A DNA stretch of 64,000 bases from positions 1,807,501 to 1,871,500 of the forward strand of contig NZ_CP064781.1 of the NCBI RefSeq assembly GCF_016858125.1. Direction: 5' to 3'. The notes beneath the pieces were generated by a model that saw only the letters and a program-made list of their open reading frames with translations, had not been told where the DNA came from and did no database searches. Positions 6,658-48,480 of the stretch are shown piece after piece. Origin of the DNA: Azospira restricta (GTDB taxonomy: Bacteria > Pseudomonadota > Gammaproteobacteria > Burkholderiales > Rhodocyclaceae). The stretch's first letter is position 1, and every line of letters begins with the position of its first letter. A program made the position numbers and the translations under genes.

Positions 6658-7023
6658 ATGGCAAAGACCGTTCTCTGCGTTGACGATTCTGCTTCGATCC
6701 GGCAGATGGTTGGCTTCACGCTGAAGAGCGCAGGCTACGAAGTGGTCGATGCCGTCGACGGGATGGACGGCCTGGACAAGGCCAAGTCGCGTGCGATCAA
6801 CCTCGTGCTCACCGACCAGAACATGCCGCGCATGGACGGCCTGACGCTGATCAAGAACCTGCGCGCGCTGCCGCAGTACAAGTCGGTGCCGATCCTGATG
6901 CTGACCACCGAGTCCTCGGACGCGATGAAGTCGCAGGGGCGCGCGGCGGGGGCGACCGGCTGGCTGGTCAAGCCCTTCGATCCGCAGAAACTGATCGAGG
7001 TGGTCAAGAAAGTCATCGGCTGA
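6658..7023 (+). CDS. cheY: CheY-type single-domain response regulator (first copy)
   Basis: At 121 residues this is a bare receiver domain. It has the acidic pair D9-D10, phospho-acceptor D53 (LTDQNMPRMDG), the switch threonine (MLTTES) and the lysine of LVKPFD. It is expected to be phosphorylated by the CheA encoded 61 bases downstream. Its sequence is clearly less like E. coli CheY than the second copy at 19.7 kb, so whether it binds FliM or works as a phosphate sink or adaptation regulator is open. A strong ribosome site (AAAAAAGGATATCTCC) precedes it. Confidence 0.92.
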   Translation: MAKTVLCVDDSASIRQMVGFTLKSAGYEVVDAVDGMDGLDKAKSRAINLVLTDQNMPRMDGLTLIKNLRALPQYKSVPILMLTTESSDAMKSQGRAAGATGWLVKPFDPQKLIEVVKKVIG

Positions 7024-17747: not shown

Positions 17748-18719
17748 ATGTCCGAACTGCTGAAAAGCATCGACGCGCGCACCAAGCTCGCGGGTACGAA
17801 CAAGCTGGAAATTCTGCTCTTCTTCCTCGGCCGCGACACGCGCACCGGGCGCAAGGAGACTTTCGGCATCAACGTCTTCAAGGTGCGCGAAGTGATGCGC
17901 ACGCCGCCGATCACCGCCGCGCCGGAAATGCCGTCGGCGGTCGAGGGCATGGTCAGCCTGCGCGGCGTGCTGGTGCCGGTGATCGACCTCGCCAAGTACG
18001 CCGGCGTGCACACCGAGACGCCGCGCGACATCATGATCGTCACCGAATACAACGGCCATACCCAGGGCTTCCTGGTCGAAGGGGTGGACACCATCCTGCG
18101 CCTCGACTGGAGCCAGATGCGCGTGCCGCCGGAGATGCTGATGGCGGAGATGGGCGGGCTGGTGACGGCGGTCACCGAGCTGCCGGACAACCGGCTGGTG
18201 ATGATGATGGACGTCGAGAAGGTGCTCGCCGAGACCGCCCGCTACGACGATGAGGCCGCCTACCGCAGCGTCGTGCCGCTGAACAAGCCGGACGCGATGG
18301 TGGTCTTCGCCGACGACTCGATCGTCGCCCGCAAGCAGATCGAGAAGACGCTGCAGCTGATGGGCGTGAAGTACGTGGGGGCGATGAACGGCCGCCTCGC
18401 CTGGGAGGAGCTGGAGAAGATCGCGACCTACGCCGACAGCACCAACAAGTCGGTGTCCGACCTGGTCAGCCTGGTGCTGACCGACATCGAGATGCCGGAG
18501 ATGGACGGCTACATCCTGACCAAGAAGATCAAGAGCGATCCGCGCTTTGCCGGCATTCCGGTGATCATGCATTCGTCGCTGTCGGGGATGTCGAACCAGC
18601 AGCTCGGCAAGTCGGTCGGCGTTGACGAATACGTCGCCAAGTTCGAGCCGCAGAAGCTGTCCGAATCCCTCGCCCGCCGGATCCTCGGCGAGTCGGCCAA
18701 CCTTCCCGTGCCGGCCTGA
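17748..18719 (+). CDS. cheV: CheV: CheW-receiver fusion (first of a tandem pair)
   Basis: CheV joins a CheW coupling domain (about 1-165; [15 protein letters not shown], then MVSLRGVLVPVIDLAKYAGV) to a response-regulator receiver (about 180-320; VFADDSIVARKQIEKTL, phospho-acceptor Asp in [15 protein letters not shown], and the conserved lysine in VAKFEPQKL). It acts in the receptor array, possibly as a phosphate sink or adaptation device. The next gene encodes a close paralogue after 26 bases. A GAGGGGG ribosome site precedes the ATG. Confidence 0.95.
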   Translation: MSELLKSIDARTKLAGTNKLEILLFFLGRDTRTGRKETFGINVFKVREVMRTPPITAAPEMPSAVEGMVSLRGVLVPVIDLAKYAGVHTETPRDIMIVTEYNGHTQGFLVEGVDTILRLDWSQMRVPPEMLMAEMGGLVTAVTELPDNRLVMMMDVEKVLAETARYDDEAAYRSVVPLNKPDAMVVFADDSIVARKQIEKTLQLMGVKYVGAMNGRLAWEELEKIATYADSTNKSVSDLVSLVLTDIEMPEMDGYILTKKIKSDPRFAGIPVIMHSSLSGMSNQQLGKSVGVDEYVAKFEPQKLSESLARRILGESANLPVPA

Positions 18720-18745
18720 CCGGGACCGTTCGCAGGAGCAAAACC

Positions 18746-19687
18746 ATGGATCTGTCAGAGAAGAAGAACCTGCTCGAGAGCGTCGACGCCCGCACGCGGC
18801 TCGCCGGCTCGAACATGATGGAAATCCTGTTGTTCTCGCTGGGCACGCGCGAGACCTTCGGCATCAACGTCTTCAAGGTCCGTGAGGTGGGGCGGACGCC
18901 GCACATCACGCGCACCCCGAACATGCCGCGCGGCGTCGAGGGGCTGATTTCGCTGCGCGGCAACGTCATCCCGGTGCTGTCGCTATCGTCCTTCCTCGAC
19001 CTCGAGGGCGGCCCGCCGCCCGGACTGGGCAAGTCGATGATGGTCGCCGAATACTCGAAGCGCACGCTCGGCTTCCTGGTGCACGAGGTCGACCGCATCA
19101 TCCGCGTCGACTGGGAGCGGGTGAAGGCGCCTGAAACGGTGCTGGCCTCGAACCAGGGGCTGATCACCGCGGTGATCGAGCTCGAGGGCGGCCGCCTGGT
19201 GTCGATCCTCGACGTCGAGCAGATCCTCGCCAACGCCTTCGGCGAGGCGGTGATCGTCGACGTGCCGCCGGTACGCGTCGCCGAGGATGTCAGCATCTTC
19301 TTCTGCGACGACTCGATCGTCGCCCGCCGCAAGATCACCGAGGTGCTCGACAAGCTGGGCGTCAAGCACAAGCACGCGACCAACGGCGCCGAGGCGTGGA
19401 CCCGCCTGCAGGCGATCGCCGCGCATGCGACGCAGATGGGCAAGCCGGTGCGCGAGGAAATCCGCGTGATCATGGTCGATGCCGAGATGCCGGAGATGGA
19501 CGGCTACGTGCTGACCAAGAACATCAAGAGCGACGCCCGCTTCAACGGGGTGCCGGTGATCATGCATTCCTCGCTGTCGTCGGAAGCCAACCGGGCGATG
19601 GGCAAGGCCGTCGGTGTCGACGGCTACGTCGCCAAGTTCGACGCCGAGGTGCTTGCCGACACGCTGCGCCCGCTGCTCGAACGCTAG
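18746..19687 (+). CDS. cheV: CheV: CheW-receiver fusion (second of a tandem pair)
   Basis: It has the same architecture as the preceding CheV and the same opening pattern ([19 protein letters not shown] against SIDARTKLAGTNKLEILLF), so the pair arose by duplication. The CheW domain shows [15 protein letters not shown] and [15 protein letters not shown]. The receiver shows [13 protein letters not shown], phospho-acceptor Asp in [11 protein letters not shown] and VAKFDAEVL. The two copies differ over much of their length, especially the CheW-receiver linker, consistent with distinct receptor partners. It is 17 bases from cheY. Confidence 0.95.
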
Positions 19688-19704
19688 GAACGGGAGTCCG
19701 AAGC

Positions 19705-20100
19705 ATGCCGGATCCGAAGATCAAGTTCCTGGTCGTCGACGATTTCTCGACGATGCGGCGCATCGTCCGCAACCTGCTGAAGGAGCTCGGATTCACCAAC
19801 GTCGACGAGGCCGAGGACGGCGCCATCGCGCTGCAGAAGCTGCAGGCGGGCGGCTTCGACTTCGTCGTTTCGGACTGGAACATGCCGAACATGGACGGCC
19901 TGACGCTGCTGCAGACGATCCGCGCGACGCCGGCGCTGAAGCACCTGCCGGTGCTGATGATCACCGCCGAGGCGAAGAAGGAGAACATCATCGCGGCGGC
20001 ACAGGCGGGGGCCAGCGGCTACATCGTCAAGCCGTTCACGTCGGCGACGCTGGCCGAGAAGCTGCAGAAGATCTTCGAGAAGATGGAAAAGGGCGCATGA
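19705..20100 (+). CDS. cheY: chemotaxis response regulator CheY (second copy, E. coli-like)
   Basis: This 131-residue receiver closely follows enterobacterial Che[18 protein letters not shown], then D57 in [13 protein letters not shown], with D12-D13, the switch Thr in MITAEA and lysine in YIVKPF. CheY-P binds FliM and changes the direction of motor rotation. Its place directly before cheZ and a cheA, and its match to classic CheY, make it the most likely motor-binding CheY here. The start follows GGGAGTCCGAAGC. Confidence 0.96.
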
Positions 20101-20128
20101 AGGGCGCACACAGGACAGAGGAAAGACA

Positions 20129-20983
20129 ATGAGCAGCGATTCCGCAGAACTCGAGGCACTCTTTGACAGCATCGCCGCCGGCAAGGCGCCGGCTGCGGCG
20201 CCCGCTGCCGCGCCGGCGGCTCCGGTTGCACCGGCGGCGCCTGCGGCCGTTCCGGCTGCTGCGGCGGCGCGCGAAGTCGGCGATTCCGACGAGCTGCAGG
20301 CGCTGTTCGATTCGATCGCCGACACCCAGACCGCGGCAGCGGCGCCGGCGGCAGCCGTCGACGAGGAGTGGGAAGGCCAGGAGAAGGTTTTCCGCCGCGT
20401 CGGCCAGATGGCCCGCCAGCTGCACGACACGCTGCGCGAGCTCGGCTACGACAAGCTGATCGCGCAGACCGTCGAGGCCCTGCCCGATGCCAAGGACCGC
20501 CTTGCCTACATCGCCAACCTGACCGAGCAGGCCGCCTGCAAGGTGCTGAACGCCACCGACGTCGCCAATCCGCTGGTCGAGTCGCTGGAAAGCGGCGCGC
20601 AGGGGCTGGCGGCGCGCTGGGACCGCGTGTACGCGAACCAGATGGGCGTCGAGGACTTCAAGCAGCTCGCCGCCGACACGCGCGCCTTCCTGAAGGAACA
20701 GGTGCCGCAGAAGACCGCCGGGACCAAGGCGCAGCTGATGGAAATCATGATGGCGCAGGATTTCCAGGACCTCACCGGCCAGGTGATCAAGAAGGTGGTG
20801 ACGCTGGCGCAGGACCTCGAGTCGCAGCTGATGAACGCGCTGATCGAGGTCATGCCCGAGGAGCACAAGACGGATTCGGTCGCCAGCCTGCTCAACGGGC
20901 CGGTGATCAATGCCGAAGGCCGCACCGACGTCGTCGTCGACCAGCAGCAGGTCGACGACCTGCTCGACAGCCTCGGCTTCTAG
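20129..20983 (+). CDS. cheZ: CheY-P phosphatase CheZ with duplicated N-terminal motif
   Basis: CheZ dephosphorylates CheY-P. The core (about 80-240) has the long helical hairpin with the catalytic glutamine in MAQDFQDLTGQVIKK. The C terminus ends in QVDDLLDSLGF, the CheY-binding helix also found at the end of E. coli CheZ. At 284 residues it is longer than E. coli CheZ because of an N-terminal Ala/Pro extension of about 75 residues. That extension contains two near-identical segments, ELEALFDSIA (7-16) and ELQALFDSIA (55-64), which resemble the C-terminal helix. It lies between cheY and the second cheA. Confidence 0.95.
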   Translation: MSSDSAELEALFDSIAAGKAPAAAPAAAPAAPVAPAAPAAVPAAAAAREVGDSDELQALFDSIADTQTAAAAPAAAVDEEWEGQEKVFRRVGQMARQLHDTLRELGYDKLIAQTVEALPDAKDRLAYIANLTEQAACKVLNATDVANPLVESLESGAQGLAARWDRVYANQMGVEDFKQLAADTRAFLKEQVPQKTAGTKAQLMEIMMAQDFQDLTGQVIKKVVTLAQDLESQLMNALIEVMPEEHKTDSVASLLNGPVINAEGRTDVVVDQQQVDDLLDSLGF

Positions 20984-20992
20984 GAGAACAAC

Positions 20993-22861
20993 ATGAGCGA
21001 TTTCGCCGGGATGGAAGATCTGCTGCAGGATTTCCTGCAGGAGGCGCACGATCTCTTGTCGGACGTCGACAACAAGCTGGTCGATCTGGAAAAGATGCCG
21101 GACGACCGCGGCCTGTTGAACGACATCTTCCGCGGCTTCCACACGGTCAAGGGGGGCGCCGGCTTCCTCAACGCGACCGAGCTGGTCACCCTCTGCCACC
21201 TCACCGAGAACCTGTTCGACCGCCTGCGCAACGGCGAGATGGACCTGACGCCCGAGCTGATGGACATCATCATGGCGGCGACCAAGGGGGTCCGCGACAT
21301 GTTCGGCGAGCTCGGGCAGGGCGTGCAGCCGCGTCCGGCGCCCGACGACGTGCTCGCCGGCTTGCGCCACGCGCTCGAGGCCGGAGCCGAAGCCGAAGTC
21401 GAAGCGCCCGCGGCACCGGCCGCCGCCGCTCCGGCCGCTGCCGCCGGCGGGCCCGACTGGAAGCAGCTGCACGCCGCCGTTACCGGGCAGGCGGTGGCGA
21501 GCGCCAGCGAAGTGATTCCGAAGTCCGAGGCGACGCCGGCCGCCGCTTCGCCGCCGCCCTACGGCCGCCGCGCGACCGACAAGCCGGGCTCGCCGACGCC
21601 GGCCGGCGCCGGCCGCCGCGCCGAGGAGCGCACCGCGGCGCGCGAGAACACGATCCGCGTCGATACCGCGCGCCTCGATCAGGTGCTCAACCTATCGGGC
21701 GAGATCGGGCTGATGAAGAACCGGTTGACCAGCCTCAGGGCCGACATCCTCGCCGGCAAGACCGATTCCGACACGCTGCACGCGCTCGACCAGGCGGTTT
21801 CGCAGCTCGACCTGCTGGTCTCCGATCTGCAGAACTCGGTCATGAAGACGCGCATGCAGCCGATCGGGCGCCTCTTCCAGAAGTATCCGCGCATCGCCCG
21901 CGACCTTGCCCGCCAGCTCGGCAAGGACGTCGAGCTGGTGCTCGCCGGCGAGGAGACCGAGGTCGACAAGACGATGATCGAGGATCTCGCCGACCCGCTG
22001 ATCCACCTCATCCGCAACGCTGTCGACCACGGCGTCGAGGGGCCGGAGGAGCGGCTCGCCTGCGGCAAGCCGACGAAGTCGGTGGTGCGCCTGGAGGCGC
22101 GCCAGGAAGGCGACCACATCGTGCTGATCATCGCCGACGACGGCCGCGGCATGAGCGCCGAGCGCATCCGCGCCAAGGCCATCGAGAAGGGACTGATCTC
22201 CGAGGAGGAGGCCAATACCCTCGACGAGCGGCAGAGCCTGCACCTGATCTTCCTGCCGGGCTTCTCGACCAAGACGCAGATTTCCGACGTTTCCGGCCGC
22301 GGCGTCGGCATGGACGTGGTCAAGACCAACATCCAGAAGCTCAACGGCACCGTGGACATCCGCTCCGAGCCGGGCAAGGGCAGCGTCTTCATCATCTCGC
22401 TGCCGCTGACGCTGGCCATCCTGCCGGTGCTGCTGGTGCTGCTCGGCGACCAGCCGTTCGCGCTGCCGCTGTCGCTGGTGCGCGAGATCCTGCCGATCGA
22501 GCACGGCAAGCTGCAGGAAGTCGGCGGCAAGGCGACGCTGGTCGTGCGCGGCGAGATCCTGCCGGTGGTGTCGCTGGCCAAGCTGCTCGGCTGGCCGCAG
22601 GACCATCCGCCCGAGTACGGCGTGCTGATGCAGACCGCCGAGCGCAGTTTCATCCTTGCCGTGGACAACTTCGCCGGCCGCGACGACGCGGTGATCAAGT
22701 CGCTCGAGGACTTCCGTCCGCGCGGCGTGGCCGGGGTGACGACGCTGTCGAACGGCCAGATCGTGCTGATCCTCGACATGAAGGAGCTGCTCTCCGACCT
22801 CGGCCAGCATCTGGACATGGATGCCCGCGGCAGCAGCATGCGCGCGCTCGAGTTCGGCTAA
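20993..22861 (+). CDS. cheA: chemotaxis histidine kinase CheA (second copy, apparently lacking P2)
   Basis: Domains in order: HPt P1 with H50 (RGFHTVKGGAGFLNATEL); a Pro/Ala/Gly linker of about 100 residues where no CheY-docking P2 fold is visible; P3 dimerisation (LDQVLNLSGEIGLMKNRL); P4 kinase (HLIRNAVDHGVEGPEER, IADDGRGM, GRGVGMDVVKTN); and P5 (FALPLSLVREILPI). With cheY-cheZ before it, this looks like the kinase of the motor-control system, as in the cheY-cheZ-cheA order of pseudomonads. It is only about 33% identical-looking by eye to the first CheA in the variable parts, so the two are not a recent duplication. A terminator follows 22 bases downstream. Confidence 0.96.
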   Translation: MSDFAGMEDLLQDFLQEAHDLLSDVDNKLVDLEKMPDDRGLLNDIFRGFHTVKGGAGFLNATELVTLCHLTENLFDRLRNGEMDLTPELMDIIMAATKGVRDMFGELGQGVQPRPAPDDVLAGLRHALEAGAEAEVEAPAAPAAAAPAAAAGGPDWKQLHAAVTGQAVASASEVIPKSEATPAAASPPPYGRRATDKPGSPTPAGAGRRAEERTAARENTIRVDTARLDQVLNLSGEIGLMKNRLTSLRADILAGKTDSDTLHALDQAVSQLDLLVSDLQNSVMKTRMQPIGRLFQKYPRIARDLARQLGKDVELVLAGEETEVDKTMIEDLADPLIHLIRNAVDHGVEGPEERLACGKPTKSVVRLEARQEGDHIVLIIADDGRGMSAERIRAKAIEKGLISEEEANTLDERQSLHLIFLPGFSTKTQISDVSGRGVGMDVVKTNIQKLNGTVDIRSEPGKGSVFIISLPLTLAILPVLLVLLGDQPFALPLSLVREILPIEHGKLQEVGGKATLVVRGEILPVVSLAKLLGWPQDHPPEYGVLMQTAERSFILAVDNFAGRDDAVIKSLEDFRPRGVAGVTTLSNGQIVLILDMKELLSDLGQHLDMDARGSSMRALEFG

Positions 22862-47483: not shown

Positions 47484-48480
47484 GCTGTTCCCCTTGCGTC
47501 GATTCCTGCTTCTCGGAAGCGATGAAGCGTTCCACCTTGATCGCGTATTGACCCTGCTGCTGGCCGAAAGTGCATTCCAGCAGCGGCACGCTATCCACCT
47601 TGGCGATGATCGTGTCCGGGATGGCGACCGGAATCACGTCGCCGACCTTCATTTTCTGGATCTGCCCCAGCGTCAGCGTGGCATGGGTCAGTTCCGCCGT
47701 GATCTCCACCTCGGCGCTCTGCAGCTGCTTCCGGAGCGTGGTGATCCAGCGCTTGTCGGTCGACAGCTGGTCGCTCTGCATGCTGCTGTAGAGCAGGTCG
47801 CGGATCGGCTCGAGCATCGAGTACGGGAAGCAGATGTGCATTTCCGCCGCGGCGCCGCCGAACTCGATCGAGAAGGTCGTCGATACGACGATTTCCGACG
47901 GCGTCGCGATGTTCGCGAACTGCGAATTCATCTCGGAGCGGATGTACTCGAACTTGAGGTCGTGCACCGGCTTCCACGAGCGCCCGTATTCGGCGAAGAC
48001 GACGTCGAGCATGCCCTGGATGATGCGCTGCTCGGTCATCGTGAAGTCGCGGCCTTCGACGCGGGTGTGGAAGCGGCCGTCGCCGCCGAACATGTTGTCG
48101 ACGACGAGGAAGACCAGGTTCGGGTCGAAGATGAACAGGCTGGTGCCGCGCAGCGGCTTTGCCGCAACCAGGTTGAGGTTGGTCGGGACCACCAGGTTGC
48201 GGATGAACTCGCTGTACTTCTGCACCTTGATCGGCCCCACCGAGATCTCGGCGTTGCGGTGCATGTAGTTGAACAGGCCGATGCGCAGATAACGGGCGAA
48301 GCGCTCGTTGATCAGCTCCATCGTGGGCATGCGCCCGCGGACGATCCTTTCCTGCGTGCCGAGGTTGTAGTTGCGCGGGCCGCTGCCTTCCTCGGCCTGC
48401 GCTTCCGGCTCGTCGGTTTCCCCGGTGACGCCCTTGAGCAGGGCGTCGACTTCTTCCTGGGAAAGAAAGTCCTGGGCCAT
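47476..48480 (-). CDS. fliM: flagellar motor switch protein FliM
   Basis: FliM is the CheY-P receptor of the motor. Residues about 5-16 (FLSQEEVDALLKG) are the CheY-binding peptide. The middle domain begins near residue 45 (IVRGRMPTMELINERFARYL) and carries the GGDGR motif used for FliG binding (NMFGGDGRFH). The SpoA-type C-terminal domain binds FliN. At 334 residues it has family length. It lies 3 bases after fliL. Confidence 0.97.
   Translation of the reverse strand: MAQDFLSQEEVDALLKGVTGETDEPEAQAEEGSGPRNYNLGTQERIVRGRMPTMELINERFARYLRIGLFNYMHRNAEISVGPIKVQKYSEFIRNLVVPTNLNLVAAKPLRGTSLFIFDPNLVFLVVDNMFGGDGRFHTRVEGRDFTMTEQRIIQGMLDVVFAEYGRSWKPVHDLKFEYIRSEMNSQFANIATPSEIVVSTTFSIEFGGAAAEMHICFPYSMLEPIRDLLYSSMQSDQLSTDKRWITTLRKQLQSAEVEITAELTHATLTLGQIQKMKVGDVIPVAIPDTIIAKVDSVPLLECTFGQQQGQYAIKVERFIASEKQESTQGEQHV

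Follow-up and report, generated by a model that had tools for sequence, protein, structure and literature searches.

Two conserved N-terminal motif copies in the chemotaxis phosphatase CheZ of Azospira restricta, plausible extra sites for a CheY-like partner

The chemotaxis genes and the CheZ extension

The window, i.e. the whole stretch of DNA that was analysed, comprises 64,000 nucleotides of the Azospira restricta contig NZ_CP064781.1, from an organism of the order Burkholderiales and the class Gammaproteobacteria in GTDB. Its forward strand carries the gene order cheV-cheV-cheY-cheZ-cheA (17748-22861), and we assume this and the related clusters discussed below to belong to the F6/F7 class of chemotaxis clusters. 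The features are:

6658-7023: receiver-only, CheY-like protein, below the NCBIfam cut-off (79.6 against 189 bits)
17748-18719, + strand: cheV, first of two, CheW and receiver domains; rival partner
18746-19687, + strand: cheV, second of two, CheW and receiver domains; rival partner
19705-20100, + strand: cheY, presumed partner; NCBIfam PRK10610.1 236.1 bits (cut-off 189), PF00072
20129-20983, + strand: cheZ, 284 aa; PF04344 247.4 bits over residues 86-284, NCBIfam PRK11166.1 295.6 bits (cut-off 257)
20141-20176, + strand: CheZ motif copy 1, SAELEALFDSIA, residues 5-16; direct and scripted reading, family conservation
20177-20284, + strand: CheZ Ala/Pro-rich linker, residues 17-52; 20 Ala and 7 Pro in 36 residues
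20285-20320, + strand: CheZ motif copy 2, SDELQALFDSIA, residues 53-64; direct and scripted reading, family conservation
20750-20782, + strand: CheZ catalytic segment MAQDFQDLTGQ (DxxxQ), by sequence reading
20948-20980, + strand: CheZ C-terminal CheY-binding tail QVDDLLDSLGF, residues 274-284, by sequence reading; role by E. coli CheZ
20993-22861, + strand: cheA without recognised P2; Hpt, H-kinase_dim, HATPase_c and CheW matches
48430-48462, - strand: FliM N-terminal CheY-binding peptide SQEEVDALLKG, for comparison (FliM is G000:C1:1855291-1855869:-)

The two CheY and two CheV proteins counted in the sequence-only reading are thus present, the more distant CheY-like receiver with a score below the family cut-off. 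CheZ matches PF04344 over profile columns 2-203 of 203, far above the cut-off of 30.7 bits, which identifies it as a CheZ phosphatase, and it has both the DxxxQ segment (QDFQDLTGQ) and the tail, whose CheY-binding role is known from E. coli CheZ. The substrate of CheZ is CheY and, judged by family match, catalytic segment and tail, the protein of the window is predicted to be a CheY-P phosphatase. PMC7750401 gives DxxxQ as the CheZ phosphatase motif and describes the N-terminal helix of E. coli CheZ as of unknown function.

Residues 1-85 form an extension ahead of the PF04344 core. Within it, ELEALFDSIA (residues 7-16) and ELQALFDSIA (residues 55-64) stand at an offset of 48; this pair on its Ala/Pro linker had been described before, and direct and scripted reading agree on it. 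The two copies have 10 of 12 residues in common and 3 of 12 codons (24 of 36 bases); selection thus acts on the protein. The few common codons and the retention of both copies across the family led us to reject a recent DNA duplication or a low-complexity artefact. The consensus is D-[SN]-x-[DE]-L-Q-A-L-F-D-S-[IV], with GDSDELQALFDSIA as a peptide of this type. A motif profile search of the own genome, with E values up to 10 allowed, returned the two CheZ places only (5.2e-9 and 1.5e-8), and among solved structures the motif found no convincing relative (best E 0.23).

Conservation in the family and spread beyond it

CheZ matches occur in 129 of 150 genomes of the family. We read 131 of the 133 listed full-length matches, the one of the window included and the second copies in G080 and G121 left out: two motif copies are present in 115 of these proteins, three in six, one in five and none in five. 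Four of the five loci without motif are second CheZ genes (L129-L132), with the motif present in the other CheZ there, and the fifth is L014. Loss of the motifs in close relatives with normal chemotaxis had been named beforehand as a result that would speak against their proposed role; among the CheZ read in the family, 126 of the 131 loci keep at least one copy. The spacing between copies ranges from 25 to 64 residues (median 35).

Positions 0 (Leu), +3 (Leu or Ile) and +4 (Phe) are fixed by the search pattern, so these columns are no evidence of conservation. Asp at -4, a position free or nearly free in the pattern, is retained in copy 1 of 124 out of 125 proteins and in copy 2 of 120 out of 121; for Asp at +5 the figures are 123 and 117, and for Ala at +2 they are 106 and 100, of the same totals. 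The flanking columns drop to about 1-2 bits. Position +7 holds Ile in 115 of 125 copies 1 and Val in 104 of 121 copies 2, which makes the duplication older than the family sample; copy 2 of the window has Ile there, unlike the majority of the family. Judged by these alignments the CheZ motifs are genuine and old and have been retained by selection, and the observation of the pair is confirmed, more strongly than reading a single sequence could tell.

In the order, 97 of 200 sampled genomes gave a motif match at E up to 0.1 (profile of 20 columns, 50 rows), and 118 of the 127 listed matches adjoin CheZ. This and the lack of further places in the own genome speak against the motif being a common feature of other proteins. 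Motif-bearing CheZ is found in 95 of the 128 genomes with full CheZ, six of these 128 from the window's own family; a single copy is present at 80 of 96 motif-bearing CheZ places, and the overall range is one to four. Named relatives include Zoogloea, Azoarcus, Aromatoleum and Propionivibrio. The class sample of 276 genomes contains 118 with a CheZ match, some of them weak, 115 of which lie outside the order. A motif match was obtained in 12 of the 276, own genome included. That genome aside, a single match fell below 0.01 (L164); it is not in CheZ, its reading frame has no CheZ likeness, and we attribute it to chance. The CheZ places of the 115 from outside the order, weak CheZ matches included, gave no motif match. 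With 95 of 128 inside the order against 0 of 115 outside, the motif is the mark of a single CheZ lineage within the order.

A number of variants were read individually. Leu replaces Phe, as in FliM, in the intermediate forms PEVEALLDSIA (third copy in L145) and LEALLDSIV (L337). Three CheZ without adjoining cheV have the degenerate N-terminal forms DIDSLFDAVA (L334), DMDALFEAAA (L336) and DLDALFEHTA (L359), which are closer to FliM EIDALL.

Likeness to CheY ligands, a repeat in CheA and predicted structure

The FliM N-terminal peptide is described as binding alpha4-beta5-alpha5 of CheY (PMC11528121), and FliM and CheZ are reported on the same CheY face (PMC3774744). We compared ten-column profiles of both CheZ motif copies, 30 FliM N-termini, 131 CheZ tails, 42 copies of a CheA repeat (see below) and 16 tails of a short CheZ-like protein, scoring each consensus against 17,261 decamers of the window and against shuffles of its own letters. 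For the known pair, the FliM profile on the CheZ tail left one decamer as high, and the tail profile on FliM three. The FliM profile left one decamer as high as the copy-2 consensus (shuffles 0.0007) and 75 as high as that of copy 1 (0.0054), and the motif profiles on FliM left 46 and 31 (0.004). With nine columns the FliM profile left 19 for copy 2 and 90 for copy 1, of 17,316. With fifteen columns the motif profile left 66 of 16,986 as high as the window FliM site and 37 as high as the CheZ tail, and the best place in CheZ for the FliM scan is the tail, not the N-terminal motifs. Between motif and tail, 102-159 of the 17,261 decamers are as high in either direction (102 and 159 for the tail profile on the two motif consensuses) and shuffles reach 0.05-0.08, i.e. 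near the composition background. Of the likeness to CheY ligands proposed earlier, that to FliM is real but modest and varies with the choice of columns; that to the CheZ tail is weak, close to the level set by composition.

An alignment of the consensus is possible with FliM E-E-V-D-A-L-L-K-G-V and with the CheZ tail Q-V-D-D-L-L-D-S-L; neither of them offers an equivalent of the Asp that is almost always found at -4. Motif and FliM peptide have in common an acidic character and the core [E]-[VIL]-x-A-L-[LF]; the FliM peptide is helical, and for the motifs a helix is predicted. In contrast to the motifs, the FliM peptide is present in one copy, has LSQ ahead of the core and K-G behind it, and carries Leu, not Phe, at +4. 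The CheZ motifs, for their part, are candidate CheY ligands.

A short CheZ-like protein was noticed in the own genome at L002 (C1:2537316-2540423, minus strand, about 1395-1994, with a second CheY at 2010-2390). It has 199 aa, scores 24.6 bits against PF04344 (35.2 with neighbours), adjoins this second CheY (229 bits to the CheY of the window) and ends in the FliM-type motif RLSQSEIDGLLNDL. The tails of all 16 such proteins read in the family are variants of the FliM-type LSQxEVDxLL, so that motifs of this type occur on other phosphatases too; CheY lies within the fetched stretch at 6 of the 16 loci.

The best match of the CheZ motif, ahead of FliM and the CheZ tail, is a repeat in CheA outside the order. 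Here P2-less CheA, adjoining motif-less cheZ, carries, between P1 and P3, a linker with the repeat DEFEALLDELHG. Scored by the CheZ motif profiles, the consensus of this repeat reaches 12.5 bits, a level equalled by 2 of 17,261 decamers (shuffles 0.002). The pattern [ITS]-[DE]-[DE]-E-F-E-A-L-L-D-[EQ]-L-H-G is found in 26 of 27 CheA, in one to three copies; the one without it, L233, breaks off in the linker, and L230 has four copies on reading. In the CheA reading frames beside cheZ at L205-L233 the repeat takes the form ITDDEFEALLDELHG. It has in common with the CheZ motifs the core x-E-[FL]-[EQ]-A-L-[LF]-D-x-[LI], the Ala/Pro linkers and a number of one to three copies by pattern, and differs in its place on CheA instead of CheZ and in its longer start (ITDDE). 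This match and the FliM likeness suggest that motifs of this kind are present on kinase, phosphatase and motor, which are the three proteins handling CheY. No Pfam P2 was found in the three repeat-bearing CheA examined (L207, L209, L212), and a likeness of the repeat to SHOCT is weak and below the cut-off. Within the order the repeat is present in 0 of 147 CheA, an absence resting on the about 127 of them with complete linkers (complete linkers: family 117 of 123, other order 10 of 24, other class 23 of 27 loci). CheA of the order has a single linker motif of its own, GPDWxxLHxAVTG, in the window at 21446-21487; the PDW pattern is present in 116 of 147, some of them incomplete sequences. A literature search, with most subscription journals outside its scope, found neither the CheA linker repeat nor the four motif strings or the CheZ N-terminal extension.

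AlphaFold2 was run on a chain from a genome of the same genus (L118; 34 rows) in which cheY naturally reads on into the N-terminus of cheZ. Both motifs are predicted as helices, at 143-156 and 181-194, and with the CheZ N-terminus alone helices are predicted at 12-25 and 50-65. The pLDDT of the ten-residue motif blocks is 67/61 and 79/59 with CheY, against 82/71 and 88/67 alone. Since confidence at the motifs did not rise with CheY in the chain, these values lend docking no support, without amounting to a negative result. When the read-through model was compared with the PDB, the 50 rows listed by each program were CheY, with PleD in the last VIA row, so that the N-terminal part was barely tested by this comparison; identity between the L118 CheY and the listed CheY structures is 76-79 percent. 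Among solved structures, the search with the window CheZ gave one strong match, PDB 1KMI chain Z (residues 86-284, E 3.2e-52), with which the window CheZ shares the core, the catalytic segment and the CheY-binding tail. In contrast to the window protein, 1kmi_Z has only 15 residues ahead of the aligned core, which leaves no room for two such motifs.

Candidate partners and the role of the motifs

Our best reading of the candidate receiver partners ranks CheY first and CheV second. We tentatively favour, at a little under an even chance, a role of the motifs as short helices on which a CheY-type receiver docks, CheY-P being the likeliest. Docking on CheY is supported by the conservation of both copies despite variable linkers, by the FliM profile match of copy 2, by the match to the CheA linker repeat, by the FliM-type tails of the short CheZ-like proteins, by the CheY face reported for both FliM and CheZ, and by the neighbouring CheY, the C-terminal half of which is nearly identical, in an alignment, to a CheY of known structure (2fka). 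That half forms the FliM/CheZ-binding face. The same reading is weakened by the missing docking signal from AlphaFold2, the background-level tail likeness, a FliM likeness that shrinks with other columns, the Asp at -4 without counterpart, and a tight link to cheV that fits another partner as well. The earlier description as CheY-binding-like motifs is partly supported: the motifs are conserved, predicted helical elements on a CheY phosphatase, and the resemblance to the tail is weaker than proposed. The C-terminal tail of CheZ is one binding site for CheY-P. With one to four more on a flexible Ala/Pro linker, additional CheY-P would be caught close to the dimer's active sites, which might raise capture or make dephosphorylation steeper with the CheY-P level. 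That the partner is a receiver, and that it is CheY-P rather than the receiver of CheV, we infer in both cases.

Alternatively, the partner might be CheV, with the motifs docking on its receiver or elsewhere on it and so recruiting CheZ to the receptor array, where the phosphatase would sit at the place in which CheY-P is made. In E. coli, a short form of CheA brings CheZ to the array. We regard CheV as the less likely partner, but the gene module makes its receivers a serious rival. In the family, cheV adjoins cheZ at 125 of 126 motif loci and at none of the five motif-less ones. For family and order together (131 family loci unselected, 24 order loci picked for the motif, and 40 other order loci nearly all picked for having no profile match, L367 having a weak one), motif and cheV coincide at 150 loci, neither is present at 42, cheV only at two and the motif only at one. 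In these loci cheV adjoins 150 of 151 motif-bearing CheZ and 2 of 44 motif-less ones, and the two exceptions, L337 and L340, have degenerate motifs on reading. Outside the order, cheV stands beside cheZ at 0 of the 29 best-scoring CheZ loci. The named relatives without cheV, L295 and L298, have under 600 bases ahead of the match, and at L401, upstream of cheZ, the place of the two cheV genes of relatives is taken by a single open frame of 674 codons that matches CheV and may be a fusion. Against CheV as partner, the association is one among gene neighbours of a single lineage and may reflect shared ancestry, and on sequence reading the C-terminal part of the CheV receiver is without most Lys of the CheY face. 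Motif number, furthermore, does not track cheV number: two cheV genes are usual whatever the number of motifs (one to four), by which we also rejected a scheme of one motif copy per CheV.

An improbable alternative is that the motifs bind a non-receiver protein of the pole or the array, such as a segment of CheA or some anchor, and so place CheZ in the cell. It would agree with the Azorhizobium CheZ, the N-terminal region of which suffices for polar localisation according to PMC7750401, and with the Vibrio CheA-LID, which binds ParP (PMC5706961). The latter is an interaction segment in CheA of ParC/ParP systems, and is different in having ParP as its partner. The pairing of P2-bearing CheA with motif-less CheZ, given next, also speaks for this reading. 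Neither PF09078 nor PF07194 has a Pfam match in the window's CheZ or neighbouring CheA at E 0.001, nor in the first 496 residues of this CheA at E 0.5. Among the 200 order genomes, PF09078 is present in 29 and PF07194 in none. Of the CheZ-bearing ones, P2 is found in 10 of 95 with the motif and in 19 of 33 without it (Fisher 1.9e-7, shared ancestry ignored), and 15 of 16 pairs of P2-bearing CheA and CheZ within 20 kb involve motif-less CheZ, G320 being the exception (33 CheZ places of P2-bearing genomes, with a few second copies far from the P2 gene, by their listed places, left out). We know of no anchor for CheZ here, and the absence of the motif from CheZ outside the order speaks against this role. 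Still less probable is that the helices fold back on the bundle or tail of CheZ and regulate it with no outside partner. They are predicted with good confidence on their own (best blocks 82 and 88), but a spacing of 25-64 residues and one to four copies suit tethered docking better than packing.

Returning to docking on CheY, the motif/P2 split may simply reflect two classes of chemotaxis system (compare PMC7184735). It also fits differently placed docking sites in P2-less systems. P2 (PF09078, PF07194) gives a chemotaxis enzyme an additional docking site for CheY, the role proposed for the motif; in contrast to the short motif of CheZ, it is a folded domain. PMC10782961 describes P2 as missing from over half of CheA and an extended unstructured region in its place in P2-less CheA. 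It is possible, if rather doubtful, that the CheY-docking motif is a movable part: where CheA lacks P2, tandem copies would be placed on the CheA linker (outside the order) and at the N-terminal end of CheZ (within the window's order, in its cheV-cheV-cheY-cheZ module), with kinase, phosphatase and motor competing for the CheY face and the number of sites tuned by duplication.

For the two extra motif copies at the front end of CheZ, binding of a CheY-like partner is a plausible role. In the usual view, CheZ holds CheY-P by one tail per subunit. If the extra sites are true, the rate, steepness or place of signal removal would be set by short motifs, one to four in number, that can be added or dropped. 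Likewise, the parallel repeat in P2-less CheA would offer a testable answer to the question how the more than half of CheA without P2 (PMC10782961) hold CheY.
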